A stretch of DNA of 64,000 nucleotides from Methanoplanus endosymbiosus (GTDB lineage Archaea > Halobacteriota > Methanomicrobia > Methanomicrobiales > Methanomicrobiaceae). Within the stretch, counting starts at the first letter, position 1. The number at the start of each line of letters is the position of its first letter. Position numbers and translations under genes: made by a program. This document shows, piece after piece, positions 350 to 5,949 of the stretch. The notes under the pieces are model-generated. The model had not been told where the DNA came from and searched no databases. It worked only from the letters and a program-made list of their open reading frames with translations. The DNA lies in NCBI RefSeq assembly GCF_024662215.1, contig NZ_CP096115.1, positions 2,170,001 through 2,234,000 of the forward strand, in the 5' to 3' direction.

Positions 350-424
350 GGGCTCGTGGTCTAGCTGGTTTATGACGTCGCCTTGACACGGCGGAGGTCT
401 TGAGTTCGAATCTCAACGAGCCCA
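350..424 (+). tRNA. tRNA-Val (anticodon GAC)
   Basis: The 75-base sequence folds into a full cloverleaf. The acceptor stem is GGGCTCG/CGAGCCC, the D stem GTC/GAC, the anticodon stem TCGCC/GGCGG with loop TTGACAC (anticodon GAC), and the T stem TTGAG/CTCAA with loop TTCGAAT; A is the discriminator base and CCA is not encoded. The gene is the integration target of the element to its right: its 3' half from the anticodon loop onward is repeated exactly at 5707. The copy here is complete, so the tRNA stays functional after integration. Confidence 0.97.
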
Positions 425-744
425 CTAACTTTTCTGTTTTTGTCGTTATTTTGTGCTTCATTCGTCAATAGAGCATCTGTTAATCTATCAATCTTAAATT
501 CTAAGGTATTTATCCGGCTGTTCAGTGATTCCGGCGTTTTATCCTGTTGCAACAATTCATCCTGATATTTACCATCTGAGAACCTGATATTATAGCCTCC
601 GGGTACCTCCTGAATGATAATTTCCTTACCGACTTTATCCGCCAATTCATTGACAGGAAACCGAATAGAGGCATAAGAATAGTTATTTCTAATTTTGTGC
701 TGCGTTATTTTTCCGCTCCATTTTCTCAGTTCTGTTGTGCTCAT
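370..744 (-). CDS. Integrase N-terminal fragment, IntN (split by att)
   Basis: A 124-residue frame starts inside the element at ATG 744 and runs across attL into the antisense of the tRNA, ending at TAA 370-372. Its last residues (GLVEIRTQDLRRVK, then ATS) are encoded by the tRNA. In the circular element the frame would instead continue after the V-K codons into IGSLLELF and the integrase C-terminal part: codons have phase 1 mod 3 here and phase 0 in the 5324-shifted copy, exactly that of the 4899-5706 frame. Residues 1-55 contain a compact hydrophobic segment, and residues 73-95 (LNSRINTLEFKIDRLTDALL) look like a coiled coil, as in the N-terminal part of SSV integrases. The start has GAGGT one base before ATG, a poor fit, so the start is uncertain. 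Confidence 0.8.
   Translation of the reverse strand: MSTTELRKWSGKITQHKIRNNYSYASIRFPVNELADKVGKEIIIQEVPGGYNIRFSDGKYQDELLQQDKTPESLNSRINTLEFKIDRLTDALLTNEAQNNDKNRKVSGLVEIRTQDLRRVKATS
383..441 (+). repeat. attL: left copy of 59-bp direct repeat
   Basis: Positions 383-441 are identical to 5707-5765 (offset 5324). The repeat begins in the tRNA anticodon loop (TTGACAC), covers the rest of the tRNA, and continues 17 bases past it. Crossover in the anticodon loop is usual for archaeal tyrosine integrases that use tRNA genes. The left copy completes the tRNA; the right copy lacks the 5' half. Confidence 0.95.
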
Positions 745-971
745 AACCTCTATTCTGATGTTGCAACATTTAAGGATAACCGCCGCCGCAAAAGCCTGTC
801 AGGTGCCTTATATTGTAATGTAATTATGAATCTATAGTAAATGTCATGCTGGATAATAACGGCGCTCTGTGTGCCTCCTGTAAGCCATTTTACGGGCATT
901 TATTTAGATAATGGATATTTCCTATAGCCTGACTAATTAAAAAAGGTTGGAATTATTATTTGTTGGTAATA
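745..971. other. Gene-free stretch in element with one iteron-like site
   Basis: No convincing gene is seen in these 227 bases. TTAAGGATAACCG near 770-782, just upstream of the IntN start, closely matches an iteron at 2034-2046 (TTAAGGATAACTG), so the factor that binds the origin-like array may also act at the integrase promoter. This is inference. Confidence 0.35.
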
Positions 972-1178
972 TTAGCCTCTGGTGTGTGCGCCTGTGGTGT
1001 TTCTGCCATTTGATGGAAGAATAATAACACTTTTTCCGGCTGCGTGTGCCTGGTCAATATGTGCCTGTTGTTCCGGTGTTGTTATGTCGTCAATGATGAA
1101 TACCGTCTGCGTGAATTGATCTTGGCTGGATGCTTCAATTTTATCTAAAATATTATGAAGTTGGTTTATTGTCTTCAT
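972..1178 (-). CDS. Small unknown protein, last gene of element operon
   Basis: A 68-residue protein starting MKTINQLHNILDKIEASS. ATG at 1178 is preferred over the upstream GTG because AAGGAG ends eight bases before it, and its A is the last base of the previous gene's TGA (TGATG), which implies translational coupling. The body contains a predicted mixed alpha/beta segment (QTVFIIDDITTPEQQAHIDQ, then AGKSVIILPSNGRN). I recognise no family. It closes the leftward replication operon. Confidence 0.65.
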   Translation of the reverse strand: MKTINQLHNILDKIEASSQDQFTQTVFIIDDITTPEQQAHIDQAHAAGKSVIILPSNGRNTTGAHTRG

Positions 1179-1471
1179 CAATTCCACTCCTTTACCTTCT
1201 CTGACTTTTGCCTGTTCTCAAGTTCATCTATCCGGCGCTCAAGTTCCAATAACTCCTCATCCTTCAGGCATGAATTTAAGGTCTGGCTTATCTGACTGAA
1301 GGTTCTGGCATATGCTAAATAAATCTGGTCGCTCTCTTTCGCTCTGAACCTGTCGGTTGCAATTCGTTTATATAATTTTTTTGAGACTTCAGAGAGCATT
1401 TTAACGAGTTCTTCACGTTTAAGCGCCTGCGCATCCTTATTCTTTGGTTTGAATGGTTCGTTATCTGCCAT
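1178..1471 (-). CDS. Small charged helical protein of unknown function
   Basis: A 97-residue, highly charged protein (MADNEPFKPKNKDAQALK...). ATG 1471 is chosen over the ATG at 1486 because GGAAGG lies about eight bases upstream and the previous gene stops at 1474, two bases before. Residues from about 65 on (LKDEELLELERRIDELENRQ) have heptad-like leucine spacing and probably form a coiled coil. No family is recognised. Its place between the helicase and the last small gene suggests an accessory replication or maintenance role, which is only inferred. Confidence 0.65.
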   Translation of the reverse strand: MADNEPFKPKNKDAQALKREELVKMLSEVSKKLYKRIATDRFRAKESDQIYLAYARTFSQISQTLNSCLKDEELLELERRIDELENRQKSEKVKEWN

Positions 1472-1473
1472 AT

Positions 1474-1800
1474 TTACGCCTTCCATTCCGGATGGTGTGT
1501 TTGTCCGGCCGCCTCTGCTTCAGCCTTACGGCGTGCATTTCCTGCACCAATCTTCTTAAGCTCCGGCGGCATTTGTCCGGACGTTATGCCGGTAATCTCA
1601 AGTCTGAATAATGGATTACATGGAAGGATTACTATCGATTCCTTCCGGTTGAAAGTGTGAATACATCCACAAATCGGACATAGAATTTCTATCTTGTTCC
1701 TTTTGATGCTGCTATGTGCTATAACTGGTAACGGCTCTAATAAGTCATCAATTGTAAATTTTATGCCCCCGCTGCCGTCTGGATTTCTGATAATTTCCAT
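1474..1800 (-). CDS. Small protein with a CPICGC zinc-knuckle-like motif
   Basis: A 108-residue protein. The start at ATG 1800 (MEIIRNPDGSGG) is preferred to the longer frame from 1854 because a strong CAGGAGGC lies about six bases upstream. Residues about 36-46 contain CPICGCIHTF, and a further Cys follows in VILPCNPLF, which together could bind zinc. The C-terminus is basic and Ala-rich (GAGNARRKAEAEAAGQ). No family is recognised. It begins one base after the stop of the frame at 1802-2134, so the two are probably co-translated. Confidence 0.7.
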   Translation of the reverse strand: MEIIRNPDGSGGIKFTIDDLLEPLPVIAHSSIKRNKIEILCPICGCIHTFNRKESIVILPCNPLFRLEITGITSGQMPPELKKIGAGNARRKAEAEAAGQTHHPEWKA

Positions 1801-1801
1801 G

Positions 1802-2134
1802 TTATAGCCTCCTGCCTGGTGTCGGCTGTGGTGGTTTGCCTGGAAAAGCACCAACCAGTATAAATAATGTTCGGTTATCTTCGGTTATCGTTCGGTTATC
1901 CTGAAATAGGATAACTGAACCGGACTTCATTTTATCCGCCAATCTGGAAATAATAGATTTATTGGCGTTGTTTTTTGTCAAAAATTGTTCAGTTATCCGG
2001 TTATCCTGCCTTATAGGTAAAAAATGTGATTTTTTAAGGATAACTGTCCTTACTGAAGATAACTGAACATAACTGTATCTAAGTATATGTAATGTATGTA
2101 ATTGAATATAATTAGATATAATTGTATATATCAT
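1802..2134 (-). CDS. Possible coupled gene overlying the iteron array
   Basis: A 110-residue frame whose DNA is largely the iteron array and the AT-rich stretch. Two signals favour translation: AGGAGGT sits about five bases before ATG 2134, which shares a base with the helicase stop (TAATG), and its TAA (1802-1804) lies one base before the next start at 1800. Against it, the sequence (MIYTIISNYIQLHTLH...) looks unlike a conserved fold, and its repeated DNR tripeptides (RQDNRITEQF, QDNRTITEDNRTLF) simply translate the iterons. It could be a coupling frame, a real protein or chance. Confidence 0.4.
   Translation of the reverse strand: MIYTIISNYIQLHTLHILRYSYVQLSSVRTVILKKSHFLPIRQDNRITEQFLTKNNANKSIISRLADKMKSGSVILFQDNRTITEDNRTLFILVGAFPGKPPQPTPGRRL
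1870..2134. repeat. Iteron array and AT-rich DNA: candidate replication origin
   Basis: Eight or nine copies of GTTATC-type repeats lie in both orientations. Three tandem TCGGTTATC copies occupy 1871-1900; GTTCAGTTATC occurs at 1987-1997 and, inverted, at 1910-1920 and 2058-2068; further copies are at 1997-2008, 2036-2049 and 2069-2079. GTTATCCT (1897-1903 with flank) and AGGATAAC (1908-1915) form a hairpin. The following 2070-2134 is almost pure A/T, as expected for a DNA-unwinding element. The array lies directly downstream of the primase and helicase genes. Origin function is inferred from this layout. Confidence 0.65.
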
Positions 2135-3483
2135 TAATATACCTCCTTTTCATCAATTAAGCATATTATCTGCGTGTTTCTCATCCTGCCTAATTTGTCG
2201 GCGCTTGAATCTATTGTCGATTGGATAATGCCTTCATCCTGTAAAAGCTCCAATATCCGATCAAGCTCGGCGGTGTGAACATATTTTGATAGTCTGCGTG
2301 ATAGCTGACTCCGGCTCAATGTGTTCTCTGCTGCTCGCTTCAGAATATTAATTACGGCGTTTATGTGGTTGCTGTCGTTCTGCTGGATGCTGTCCGCCAA
2401 TAGTCGGCTGGAAGTCGGAAGGAAATAGTCTTTAACATGCCCCAGTGCTTCGTCAAAATAACAATCAGGTATGTTGAAGACTGCCTGATATGCTGCCGGC
2501 TCTTTGTCTGCAACATCTGTTAGAAATGCGATATTTCCACCACTGGCTTTTAAGTCCTGATATTTCAGATTGGCATCTTTGATAAACTGCCGGCTGCCAA
2601 TATAATACAATCCTGCCAGCTTGAAAACATAAATCCTTAATCGGCTGGACAATGTTAGGTTGTCCTCTGATTCCTGCTTTTGATGCTCTCTAAGGCTTCG
2701 TTGCCAGTGGTTATATCTCTCTAAGGCTTCGGTGCTTGGAATGAATAACAGGTTCTCAAATCTATGTGTGGTTGTCCAGATTTCAGATAGTCGGTCTGAT
2801 AGCGCCTTTGTCTGTTCCGCCGTGCCGATTGTTGAAATTGAAACGTCAATATATTCCGGCGTTCCTTCCGGCTGAACTATTAGGTATCTGGCTAGTAGTC
2901 CTGACTCCAAATCTGTTGGTTCTGTCGAATTTTTGAAGTTTAACGGTGTGGTTGCCATTAAAACAGACATAGATATATTATTGGCTGTATATGTGTCTCC
3001 GCCGCCGGCTTTCTTTGTTAGTCTTTTATGAATCACTTTAGGATTATCGTAATATTTGCACAAATCATCACTTAAGCCGTTCAGATGTCCGCCTTTTTTG
3101 TGCATCTCCTTTAACAGTCCGCCGACTTCATCATTAGCATAATACGCGGTTGGTGTCTCTGCCAGACATTCTATTAATGATTGCCGGCTGAAGCTGTCTG
3201 GAAGTTTGTTGCCAATTCCGGCGGACTGTATTAAGTCCAGAAATTCATCAAAAGCGGTTGATTTTCCGGAAAAACTGGACTGTCCAATCAGGATCGTCCA
3301 GATATTCGGAATCACATCACTAAATGATAATGGTAAATGAATCCTCCGGTCTGCACAAATAGAAAGTGCTGTCAGTGCTCCACTATACTTAAATTCAGGA
3401 AATCCGCCGGACTTTTCCATATATGTTGAAATATATTCCTGTACGAAATTATCCTCCTCCAAATTTATTTTCAGTTCTGGCAT
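2134..3483 (-). CDS. DUF3987-like replication helicase/ATPase
   Basis: A 449-residue P-loop protein of the type that accompanies archaeal and viral primase-polymerases. GQSSFSGKST (about residues 67-76) is a Walker A motif and YYANDEVGG (about 112-120) fits Walker B, followed by a sensor-like SVLMATTPLNF. The C-terminal 100 residues (RSQLSRRLSKYVHTAELDRI, then LLQDEGII) look like a winged helix for DNA binding. ATG 3483 is preferred to 3501 because GGAGGAGG lies eight bases upstream. It overlaps the primase gene end by 13 bases, so the two are coupled. It most likely unwinds DNA at the element's origin. Confidence 0.8.
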   Translation of the reverse strand: MPELKINLEEDNFVQEYISTYMEKSGGFPEFKYSGALTALSICADRRIHLPLSFSDVIPNIWTILIGQSSFSGKSTAFDEFLDLIQSAGIGNKLPDSFSRQSLIECLAETPTAYYANDEVGGLLKEMHKKGGHLNGLSDDLCKYYDNPKVIHKRLTKKAGGGDTYTANNISMSVLMATTPLNFKNSTEPTDLESGLLARYLIVQPEGTPEYIDVSISTIGTAEQTKALSDRLSEIWTTTHRFENLLFIPSTEALERYNHWQRSLREHQKQESEDNLTLSSRLRIYVFKLAGLYYIGSRQFIKDANLKYQDLKASGGNIAFLTDVADKEPAAYQAVFNIPDCYFDEALGHVKDYFLPTSSRLLADSIQQNDSNHINAVINILKRAAENTLSRSQLSRRLSKYVHTAELDRILELLQDEGIIQSTIDSSADKLGRMRNTQIICLIDEKEVY

Positions 3484-4499
3484 GCCTGAAGCCTCCTCCA
3501 TTTCTGAATAAGTGCGTCAATGGATGCCAGTATTTCCGGATCGGCTTCTGTCGGCGTAATAATGCCGTCTTCTCTTAAACATCTGAAAAACTCAGACCAT
3601 TTGTTATTAAGGCATCCTGCTCCGGCTTCGCTGCAATCAATAATGCCTCTAGCAACGGCGTATGCCTCTACACCTCCTCCGCCGGTCTGATGCCTGAAGC
3701 AATACCATGTATTTTTCCTGATGTTAATGCAAAGATTGTTGCCTGTTGATGAACCATGCGCTGGATGAGCGCCTCTAATTTCATCTGAAGAAATATACCT
3801 GCCATTCTCCGGCATCAGGTAATCCTGCACTCTAAGGTTATACTGGTCTGTGATGCTGTCGCCGTGTCCGGCGCTGGTGCGTCTTCTTGGCGCTTTTGCA
3901 GGTTTCTTAATAATGATGTCTGAAATCCACTTTGGAAGATCTGCTATTGGCTGGTATTCATCTATCCACTGATAGTTAACTCCGGTCTGGTGCTGTGATG
4001 GTGCCGCTATGACATATCCTGAATATTTACAGTCTATTCCTTCGCCAAGCTGACCTTTTACCTTAATATCTCCTTCCGGCGCTCTGTAATAGCGGTGTGT
4101 GCCTCTACAATCGTTCTGCATGCCGGTTAAGGCTGTAAGTGTGATTGGTAGTGGTTCGTGCTCCTGCTCAAGTGCCTGTAATGTATGAAGTCCACCATTC
4201 CGCGGATCGGTGTCCAGAACTATAAGTCCTGAAGCTATGCAGGATATACCGATGCTGGCATCTGGAAATTGTGTCCACCACTGCCGGATTTTTCTTAAGT
4301 CTGGAGAGGCATCTTTAAATCCGTGTTCTGTGAGTGGTGCCTTATCCTGACTGCATGGAAAAATAGAAAATCCGCGTCTGCCATAGTCCAATGCTGCCTG
4401 CAAAAGACTTATATCTGAGTTACCATAATATATTGTTGAATCATTTGTTTCTGCCGGCGGTTGTGGTAGATTGCCGGCTACTCTTTCTGGATTTAACAA
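3471..4499 (-). CDS. Bifunctional DNA primase/polymerase (prim-pol)
   Basis: A 342-residue protein. Residues about 30-195 match the AEP-type prim-pol domain: GFSIFPCSQDKAPLTEHGFKDAS near the N-terminus, the catalytic acidic pair in GLIVLDTDPRNGG, the His in CRGTHRYY, and SGYVIAAPSQHQTGVNYQW. Residues about 245-285 (CINIRKNTWYCFRHQTGGGG) resemble the Cys/His zinc module that follows prim-pol in archaeal elements. The start is TTG 4499, supported by GAGGT six bases upstream and a 7-base overlap with the gene before it. With the downstream helicase it forms the replication module. Confidence 0.88.
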   Translation of the reverse strand: MLNPERVAGNLPQPPAETNDSTIYYGNSDISLLQAALDYGRRGFSIFPCSQDKAPLTEHGFKDASPDLRKIRQWWTQFPDASIGISCIASGLIVLDTDPRNGGLHTLQALEQEHEPLPITLTALTGMQNDCRGTHRYYRAPEGDIKVKGQLGEGIDCKYSGYVIAAPSQHQTGVNYQWIDEYQPIADLPKWISDIIIKKPAKAPRRRTSAGHGDSITDQYNLRVQDYLMPENGRYISSDEIRGAHPAHGSSTGNNLCINIRKNTWYCFRHQTGGGGVEAYAVARGIIDCSEAGAGCLNNKWSEFFRCLREDGIITPTEADPEILASIDALIQKWRRLQACQN

Positions 4500-4654
4500 G
4501 TTTTTACCTCTCGGTTTTTAAGTTCTGTTCTCAGTGCTGAATCCATCAGCTTTGAAAAGTTAATTCCTGCTGACTTGGCTTCCTGCTTTAGGTCGTATTC
4601 TACACGACAATTCAGGCATGCGTATACTTTGCCTGCCGAGACTAATTTAGTCAT
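4493..4654 (-). CDS. Ribbon-helix-helix (CcdA-like) regulator
   Basis: A 53-residue protein, first gene of the element operon. ATG 4654 is chosen because a perfect AGGAGGT (complement of 4664-4670) lies nine bases upstream; the longer frame from 4684 has none. The body (ACLNCRVEYDLKQEAKSAGI, then NFSKLMDSALRTEL) matches the ribbon-helix-helix pattern of CcdA-type antitoxins and plasmid copy-control repressors: a beta strand, then two helices with an N-F-S turn. No toxin partner is adjacent, so copy control or autorepression is more likely than a toxin-antitoxin role. Confidence 0.75.
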   Translation of the reverse strand: MTKLVSAGKVYACLNCRVEYDLKQEAKSAGINFSKLMDSALRTELKNREVKTC

Positions 4655-4670
4655 TTTTTTGTTACCTCCT

Positions 4671-4692
4671 GTAGTATACTGCACTATACTAC
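4671..4692. promoter_or_regulatory. Palindromic operator of the element operon
   Basis: GTAGTATA and TATACTAC form a perfect 8-bp inverted repeat separated by CTGCAC, directly upstream of the Shine-Dalgarno sequence of the ribbon-helix-helix gene. Dimers of such regulators bind short palindromes of this kind, so this is the likely autoregulatory site. Binding is inferred. Confidence 0.55.
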
Positions 4693-4705
4693 AACATCCT
4701 CTATA

Positions 4706-4747
4706 TGCGCGCTTTATAAATAAAAGCGTTTTTGTGCGCGCTTTATA
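4706..4747. repeat. Two 13-bp direct repeats in operon promoter
   Basis: TGCGCGCTTTATA occurs at 4706-4718 and 4735-4747, a 29-bp period (about three helical turns). Each includes a TATA-like core (on the minus strand TATAAAGCGCGCA). They lie where the promoter of the leftward operon should be. Either both are TATA/BRE elements of tandem promoters or they bind a regulator. The remaining DNA to 4898 shows nothing else I can support. Confidence 0.5.
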
Positions 4748-4898
4748 TGCTATGGAGTATAATATATTATTGTGTGGAATTAGGACTAATTTGACCTTAT
4801 TTTTTTGTGGATTTTTTAAGAAATTGGTGCCTTCCGGAGAGGTGCCGCACTCTCAAAAAGCAATATATTTTTTATAGTTTGTATTTTGGCGCGGTGTT

Positions 4899-5706
4899 CT
4901 AACCTGTGAATTCCGGAAAATATTGTATTGTCTGGCTGTATGCTCTACATGCCTGCATATGGAGATTGGCGTAATGTCTGCCTATAACTGTTCGGCTGGT
5001 TCGGCTTTGCAGGTAATCAACAATACTTTCCTGCACTCCGTGTTTTAATAATAGGTTGGCATGCCATTTCCGGAGGTTCTTAACCGGCATGCCTGCATCC
5101 TGAAGTCCTTTTAATATAGTGCTTGGATGTTGATGTGGTAATTCATAACTTTTCAGTTCATCAACAAAACTGGAAGGAAAATATAATACAAATGCTGATT
5201 TGTTGCCTCTGCCTGCATCTGTTACCGGATAGAATGAAACCTCCGGATTATCTCCATCTGTCTGGATGTTCTCCGGTTTGAAGTCCTGCAATGCTCTAAA
5301 TAAATGGATACCTCTGGCTCCGGTATATGCTGCCAGTTTAAAGAAGGTCTGGAGGTTCACCGGAATTAATGGATAAGCTTCCTCCAGATCGTGATCATTG
5401 AAAAATGTTATTTTTGGCTGTGATGTTTTTATCTTCAGGCTTTTTAACCATTTGTCCGGATTGATGTTCAGTATCTTTTCAAATCCGATAACATCTTCCA
5501 TAAAATGAATAAAAACTCTCAGTCCTTTTGTCTGAGAATCTGTAAGTTTAAGCTTCAGTAAATCAGCAATATTTCTAATATCTGGAAGTTTTAATAATCC
5601 GTTAATATAATCCTTTTTTCGTGCTTCTGACACCTTCCGGACGTGCTCCAAATAGTCAATAAATTGTGCTTTATATTGGTTAAAAAGCTCTAAAAGGCTG
5701 CCAATT
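4899..5706 (-). pseudogene. Integrase C-terminal catalytic fragment, IntC (split by att)
   Basis: This frame holds the tyrosine recombinase catalytic domain. Counting from a possible TTG start at 5651 (250 residues), the key residues are R113 in YTGARGIHLFRAL, K151, R194 in KNLRKWHANLLL, H226 and the nucleophile Y227 in TVIGRHYANLH. The frame stays open upstream through the att copy (KVSGLVEIRTQDLRRVK, then IGSLLELF), exactly continuing the IntN protein; the joined gene is 1170 bases. In the integrated state no ATG or GTG precedes the catalytic part, and only the TTG at 5651 could start it, so activity is doubtful. It is the interrupted half of an SSV-type integrase rather than a decayed gene. 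Confidence 0.88.
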
Positions 5707-5765
5707 TTGACACGGCGGAGGTCTTGAGTTCGAATCTCAACGAGCCCACTAACTTTTCTGTTTTT
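5707..5765 (+). repeat. attR: right copy of 59-bp direct repeat
   Basis: Identical to 383-441. It holds the 3' part of tRNA-Val from the anticodon loop to the acceptor end plus 17 bases, without a 5' half, so it is not a tRNA gene. A T-rich run follows. Chromosomal DNA resumes here. Confidence 0.95.
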
Positions 5766-5949
5766 TTTGGTTTTCTTATTATTTTATAGCTATCTTATCC
5801 GGTAATTCTTTTATTCACTTTTCCATTCTGCGTTGCGGAGATTTGTATGTCTATTCCAAAAATCTTTTAAATGACTGAAAGATCATTATACCGGTTTGTC
5901 TGTCTCTGATTATGTAAGCCTTATTTCTAATACGGTATAAGAGAAATAT

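Follow-up and report, generated by a model that had tools for sequence, protein, structure and literature searches.

Archaeal elements whose integrase gene is split on insertion are already known, the mechanism having been described for SSV1, pTN3, pT26-2 and a thaumarchaeal case. The review by Badel et al. (2021) tied these 'suicidal' integrases mainly to hyperthermophiles, presented the system as one developed by hyperthermophilic archaea, and named Methanosarcinales among the hosts (PMC8371274). NitEve-E3 provides a precedent outside the hyperthermophilic groups (PMC6563490). Described species of Methanoplanus grow at 16–41 °C (PMC4149034). Here we analysed a window of 64,000 nucleotides from Methanoplanus endosymbiosus (contig NZ_CP096115.1, positions 2,170,001 to 2,234,000) and found near its start what is almost certainly an integrated plasmid-like element, 5,324 bp long, whose tyrosine integrase is of the SSV type ('suicidal', type I) and was split on insertion into tRNA-Val(GAC).

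Boundaries of the element and the divided integrase gene

The element is bounded by two copies of an exact 59-bp repeat, identical at 59/59 positions and spaced 5324 bp apart (Table 1). The earlier note on this DNA had described a perfect repeat of this length bounding 5324 bp, and its coordinates proved exact. The repeat covers the 3' part of tRNA-Val(GAC), the single tRNA that ARAGORN detects within the window, and the intact tRNA stands beside int(N), as is characteristic of SSV-type insertions. We compared this occupied site with that of G001, a sister species in the same genus that carries the same locus without the element. The left flank aligned to base 10442 of L028 and the right flank from 15707, with a single 60-bp overlap. 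Once joined, the flanks of the window align with the G001 locus straight through the tRNA, with synteny on both sides.

Table 1. Features of the element (window coordinates)
Feature	Position	Strand	Basis
tRNA-Val(GAC), intact; target of integration, restored beside int(N)	350..425	+	ARAGORN; same tRNA sequence in the unoccupied locus of the sister species
int(N), N-terminal integrase half; stops within the tRNA antisense	370..744	-	ORF, 124 codons; 49% identical to int(N) of G005
attL, copy of the 59-bp repeat; begins immediately 5' of the anticodon and extends 16 bp beyond the tRNA	383..441		Exact repeat
Palindrome TGTTGCAACA, candidate operator or arm site	759..768		Precedes the int start codon by about 15 bp
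Small ORF, 71 aa, function unassigned	972..1187	-	No family match
Small ORF, 102 aa; homologue in the G005 element	1178..1486	-	tblastn E 3e-7
Small ORF, 108 aa, function unassigned	1474..1800	-	ORF list
Iteron-like GTTCRGTTATC repeats, candidate origin	1866..2070		8 copies with ≤2 mismatches
DUF3987 helicase/primase-associated protein, 455 aa	2134..3501	-	PF13148 E 2.4e-16; PHROG DNA primase E 2.8e-23
Prim-Pol primase-polymerase, 342 aa	3471..4499	-	PF09250 E 3.5e-38
CcdA/RHH-like small regulator, 63 aa	4493..4684	-	PF07362 E 2.4e-6
int(C), core-binding and catalytic half; 294-codon open frame without a nearby ATG	4899..5783	-	PF16795 E 3e-25 for 4899-5651
attR, other copy of the 59-bp repeat	5707..5765		Exact repeat

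The two halves of the integrase gene are in matching phase. Fusing 744→383 to 5706→4899 gives 1,170 nt, or 389 codons plus a stop, with zero internal stops, and codons 102–121 of this fused gene come from att and read KNRKVSGLVEIRTQDLRRVK. The stop-free join bears out the proposal that recombining the repeats would rebuild a single 1170-base integrase gene, and the position of att within it confirms that the antisense of the tRNA supplies residues in the middle of the protein.

Family matches, homology searches and the predicted fold all agree with the SSV-type assignment made in the earlier note. PF16795 (Archaeal phage integrase, Phage_integr_3) was the sole Pfam match both for the fused protein (E 6.5e-25) and for int(C) alone (E 3e-25), and the one strong PHROG match was to the integrase family PHROG 5127 (E 8e-27). 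Searches with tblastn recovered SSV1 ORF D-335 (3e-7) and ApPV1 (8e-19) from phages, and the integrases of pT26-2 (3e-15) and pGE2 (5e-17) from plasmids; no relative was found in viral contigs scanned with alignment A1. The AF2 model of int(C) has a pLDDT of 85.6, and its best PDB matches in Foldseek are 3uxu and 3vcf, the catalytic domain of the SSV1 integrase. Alignment with SSV1 showed that R252, K290, KxxRK 330–334 (K330, R333 and K334), R356 and Y366 are retained, and the PF16795 catalytic domain carries the R..K..KxxR..R..Y set found in SSV-type integrases. In a 35-row integrase tree the window protein clusters with G005, G017 and G122, with supports of 84/100 and 82/96, and falls outside a large set of Methanosarcinales and some Methanomicrobiales sequences and apart from SSV1 and pT26-2.

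The N-terminal module of the integrase matched no Pfam family. AlphaFold modelled Int(N) with low confidence (pLDDT 61), and an AbrB-like reading of the result would be a guess. Within the int(C) model, pLDDT falls below 50 at residues 1–5 and 8–21 of 294, a region that covers most of the att-encoded stretch and suggests that this stretch may serve as a flexible linker.

Considering that int(N) and int(C) are both long open frames as they stand, we asked whether they might always have been two genes, with int(N) encoding a small DNA-binding protein in its own right, int(C) a recombinase that acts by itself, and the agreement in phase being coincidental. Int(C) of SSV1 and of SSV2 alone does retain weak activity in vitro (PMC8371274). 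However, the int(C) frame has its first ATG only at residue 95, no gene lies upstream of it on the same strand, and the gene next beyond it runs on the opposite strand. The relatives of the integrase described below bear further on this alternative.

Split and joined relatives in other methanogens

The earlier note had proposed searching tRNA-Val genes of other Methanomicrobiales for empty or occupied sites. Outside the empty site of the sister species, we found tRNA-Val or tRNA-Gly sites occupied by in-phase halves in nine other methanogen genomes (G049, G047, G402, G442, G285, G506, G313, G260 and G426), all with stop-free fused halves; these split pairs are homologous, so their agreement in phase does not amount to independent events, although their integration sites differ. 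The intact tRNA stands on the int(N) side in 9/9 of these genomes, and the targets are Val-TAC, Val-CAC and Gly-CCC. G005, from a related genus, shares element genes with the window and has its integrase split in tRNA-Ala(GGC) by a 44-bp repeat with matching phase, yet a stop codon stands at the joint. At L075 the frame is open across the joint and the N module is broken upstream; G037 has a frameshift and mismatches between its att copies.

Three further candidates were dropped: G476 as a stop-free pair, because its fused frame contains two stops; G309, because its C half is truncated; and G394, because its att copies differ (38/47 bases the same) and its phases disagree. At the G394 locus (L079, Methanococcoides sp. 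EBM-47), the tRNA-Val-like att sequence beside int(N) is not the one beside int(C), and the two phases differ, a pattern that would be expected had the halves come from separate elements. We also observed two int(C) and one int(N) at a single tRNA-Val(TAC) in G285 (L149 and L150), an arrangement resembling two elements stacked at one site. The N-terminal part of int(N) in G047 (L026) looks RHH-like by eye, with a weak CcdA match (E 0.22), and differs from the module of the window element.

Joined versions of the gene also exist in related genomes, the absence of which had been named in the earlier note as evidence against its reading; this finding holds in full for a distant genome and in part for the nearest. 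Together with the in-phase halves above, the joined copies answer both of the refuting conditions set by the earlier note. G345, a complete genome from a distant methanogen of the same phylum, carries an intact joined integrase of 436 codons (L136, 5490-6800), in which a single frame runs from the N module through the peptide GGPDEIRTHDPRRVK to the catalytic domain. It is the sole intact joined copy that we found. The nearest joined relative, the chromosomal G017 gene, is 44% identical over residues 40–384 and runs in one frame across the joint, but is frameshifted between residues 38 and 40. Stops or changes of frame interrupt the other joined copies, which come from Methanococcoides seepicolus (L066), Methanoculleus sp. 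FWC-SCC1 (L080) and Methanosarcina sp. UBA289 (L068). Next to the G345 gene lie apparent gyrB and gyrA genes, then OLD-nuclease-like and helicase/restriction-like ones, and no tRNA was found near the integrase gene in the 13 kb read.

These relatives weigh heavily against two genes of separate origin. The joined relatives align in one frame over the joint, with the intact 436-codon gene as the key counter-example, and many genomes show the same split, matched in phase, at tRNA genes. Because G017 aligns across the joint in one frame and nine genomes have stop-free fused halves, the matching phase is not due to chance. Judged from these alignments, the two-gene alternative appears largely refuted already, and the likelihood that we would assign to it is close to nil.

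Under the preferred explanation, a single integrase gene split on insertion, int would be one 389-codon gene in the free circle, with attP formed by codons 102–121 as the antisense of the 3' half of tRNA-Val. Recombination by the integrase between attP and the 3' part of tRNA-Val(GAC) would have left a presumably promoter-bearing int(N) and an intact tRNA at one end and a presumably promoterless, catalytic int(C) at the other, with the halves probably silent. The tRNA-encoded peptide falls in a stretch of predicted disorder that separates the N-terminal module from the core-binding domain, a position that may explain how tRNA sequence is tolerated in the middle of the protein.

Gene content, replication and excision

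Between the two integrase halves lie six further ORFs, together with iteron-like repeats and a palindrome. The four exact copies of GTTCRGTTATC at 1866-2070 are all the exact copies in the window, and replication of the element would probably rely on Prim-Pol and these iterons. The palindrome TGTTGCAACA occurs again, exactly, at 545-554 inside int(N), and the window has no exact copy besides these two. In G005 and G017, as in the window, the upstream copy precedes the int start by about 15 bp; the inner copy, about 214 bp further in, is exact in G005 and has one mismatch in G017. Scans for sigma-70 promoters and for terminators were disregarded because they do not suit archaeal DNA. As a separate observation, Prim-Pol and the DUF3987 protein are encoded by two overlapping genes in the window (2134-4499), and G005 has one 725-aa protein, the C-terminal part of which corresponds to the DUF3987 gene of the window.

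Small integrated plasmid is the simplest label that this gene content suggests. Fuselloviruses also carry SSV-type integrases, and small prim-pol elements in archaea, Methanosphaerula among them, have been proposed to be integrated satellite viruses (Makarova et al. 2014, PMC4158269), so we considered whether the element might instead be a provirus or a satellite virus. Pfam and PHROG scans of the six non-integrase ORFs gave no match to capsid, packaging or membrane-protein families in any of the six, and no Fuselloviridae-type family (VP1 and VP3 structural proteins, DnaA-like protein) was present among the ORFs of the element. A viral identity is on this evidence quite improbable.

Whether or not it is a plasmid, the element seems unlikely to leave by its own means. 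The host has no second PF16795 gene: int(C) is the sole match in the 3.16-Mb assembly, and the fused protein matches only its own two halves in the host genome. Across the order to which the host belongs, PF16795 is carried by 18/232 genomes. Neither a free circle nor an attP junction was seen in the host assembly, which is one contig. Since the host encodes no further PF16795 gene, self-excision looks unlikely and excision would need the intact integrase of another element; an intact related integrase can excise split elements (PMC8371274). The best reading of the sequence is therefore that the element would be trapped unless integrase is given in trans, which supports the same suggestion in the earlier note.

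A trapped element might also be a dead one, in which an old integration has left integrase halves and replication genes that no longer function. The integrase is split, the host has no second copy, and relatives at other sites show decay (the stop at the G005 joint, the frameshift and att mismatches of G037, and the C-half truncation of G309), all of which would fit such a relic. By contrast, the att copies of the window element are identical, its fused frame is free of stops, its remaining ORFs are open, and the sister species lacks the element. Identical att copies, open frames and the empty site of the sister point to recent integration, and we consider a dead relic unlikely, though the least so of the three alternatives. 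Its very small size, its identical att copies and the empty sister site make it a handy test case for whether a split-integrase element can exit again.

A broader and rather speculative possibility is that self-splitting integrases have radiated widely in mesophilic methanogens, with an N-terminal module and palindromic int sites of their own, and that some hosts, such as G345, keep a joined chromosomal copy away from tRNA genes as a possible resident helper that frees trapped elements. We would bet against this proposal as a whole.

Comparison with known split-integrase elements

The window element resembles SSV1 in carrying a tRNA-antisense att inside the int frame (codons 64–78 in ORF D-335 of SSV1, codons 102–121 here), in its catalytic residues and in its fold, for which SSV1 is the best match. 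It differs in that identity over the C half is about 25%, the N-terminal module is different, and SSV1, a virus of Sulfolobus, has structural genes, none of which were recognised in the element.

The Thermococcales plasmids pT26-2 and pGE2 also encode integrases of the suicidal type, which are more similar to the window protein than that of SSV1 is by the E values given above, and the att peptide of pT26-2, GGPGGIRTRDLRLR, resembles GLVEIRTQDLRRVK of the window element. Identity to these integrases is nevertheless about 27–29%, and their N-terminal residues look RHH-like by eye. They are plasmids of 21–24 kb in hyperthermophile hosts, whereas the window element is 5.3 kb. For the comparison with the pT26-2 core, family scans of the non-integrase ORFs gave Prim-Pol, DUF3987 and CcdA only, and the plasmid search was made with the integrase query alone. 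NitEve-E3, from a thaumarchaeon (PMC6563490), and ArcVen-P3 (PMC4158269) likewise have an SSV-like integrase that is split on integration, but their host lineages and gene content differ.

The earlier note had called this element a methanogen counterpart of the SSV-type elements. That description is correct, although such a counterpart is not unprecedented, as Methanosarcinales hosts had been listed (PMC8371274); the papers searched contained no earlier mesophilic Methanomicrobiales element of this kind. Considering that the genus is mesophilic and that the element has many methanogen relatives, heat is unlikely to be the reason why self-splitting integrases persist. A close likeness is also seen in the split elements of Methanosarcinales and other Methanomicrobiales (G005, G049, G402, G506, G260 and others), which share the mid-protein tRNA peptide and likewise keep the tRNA intact beside int(N), and most of whose int(N) have a common N-terminal module with a coiled-coil-like stretch. 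Unlike the window element, these target Val-TAC, Val-CAC, Ala-GGC and Gly-CCC, and identity to them is at most 44%. That highest value is reached by G005, which alone, among the loci compared for element genes, has both the helicase-like protein and the 102-aa protein.
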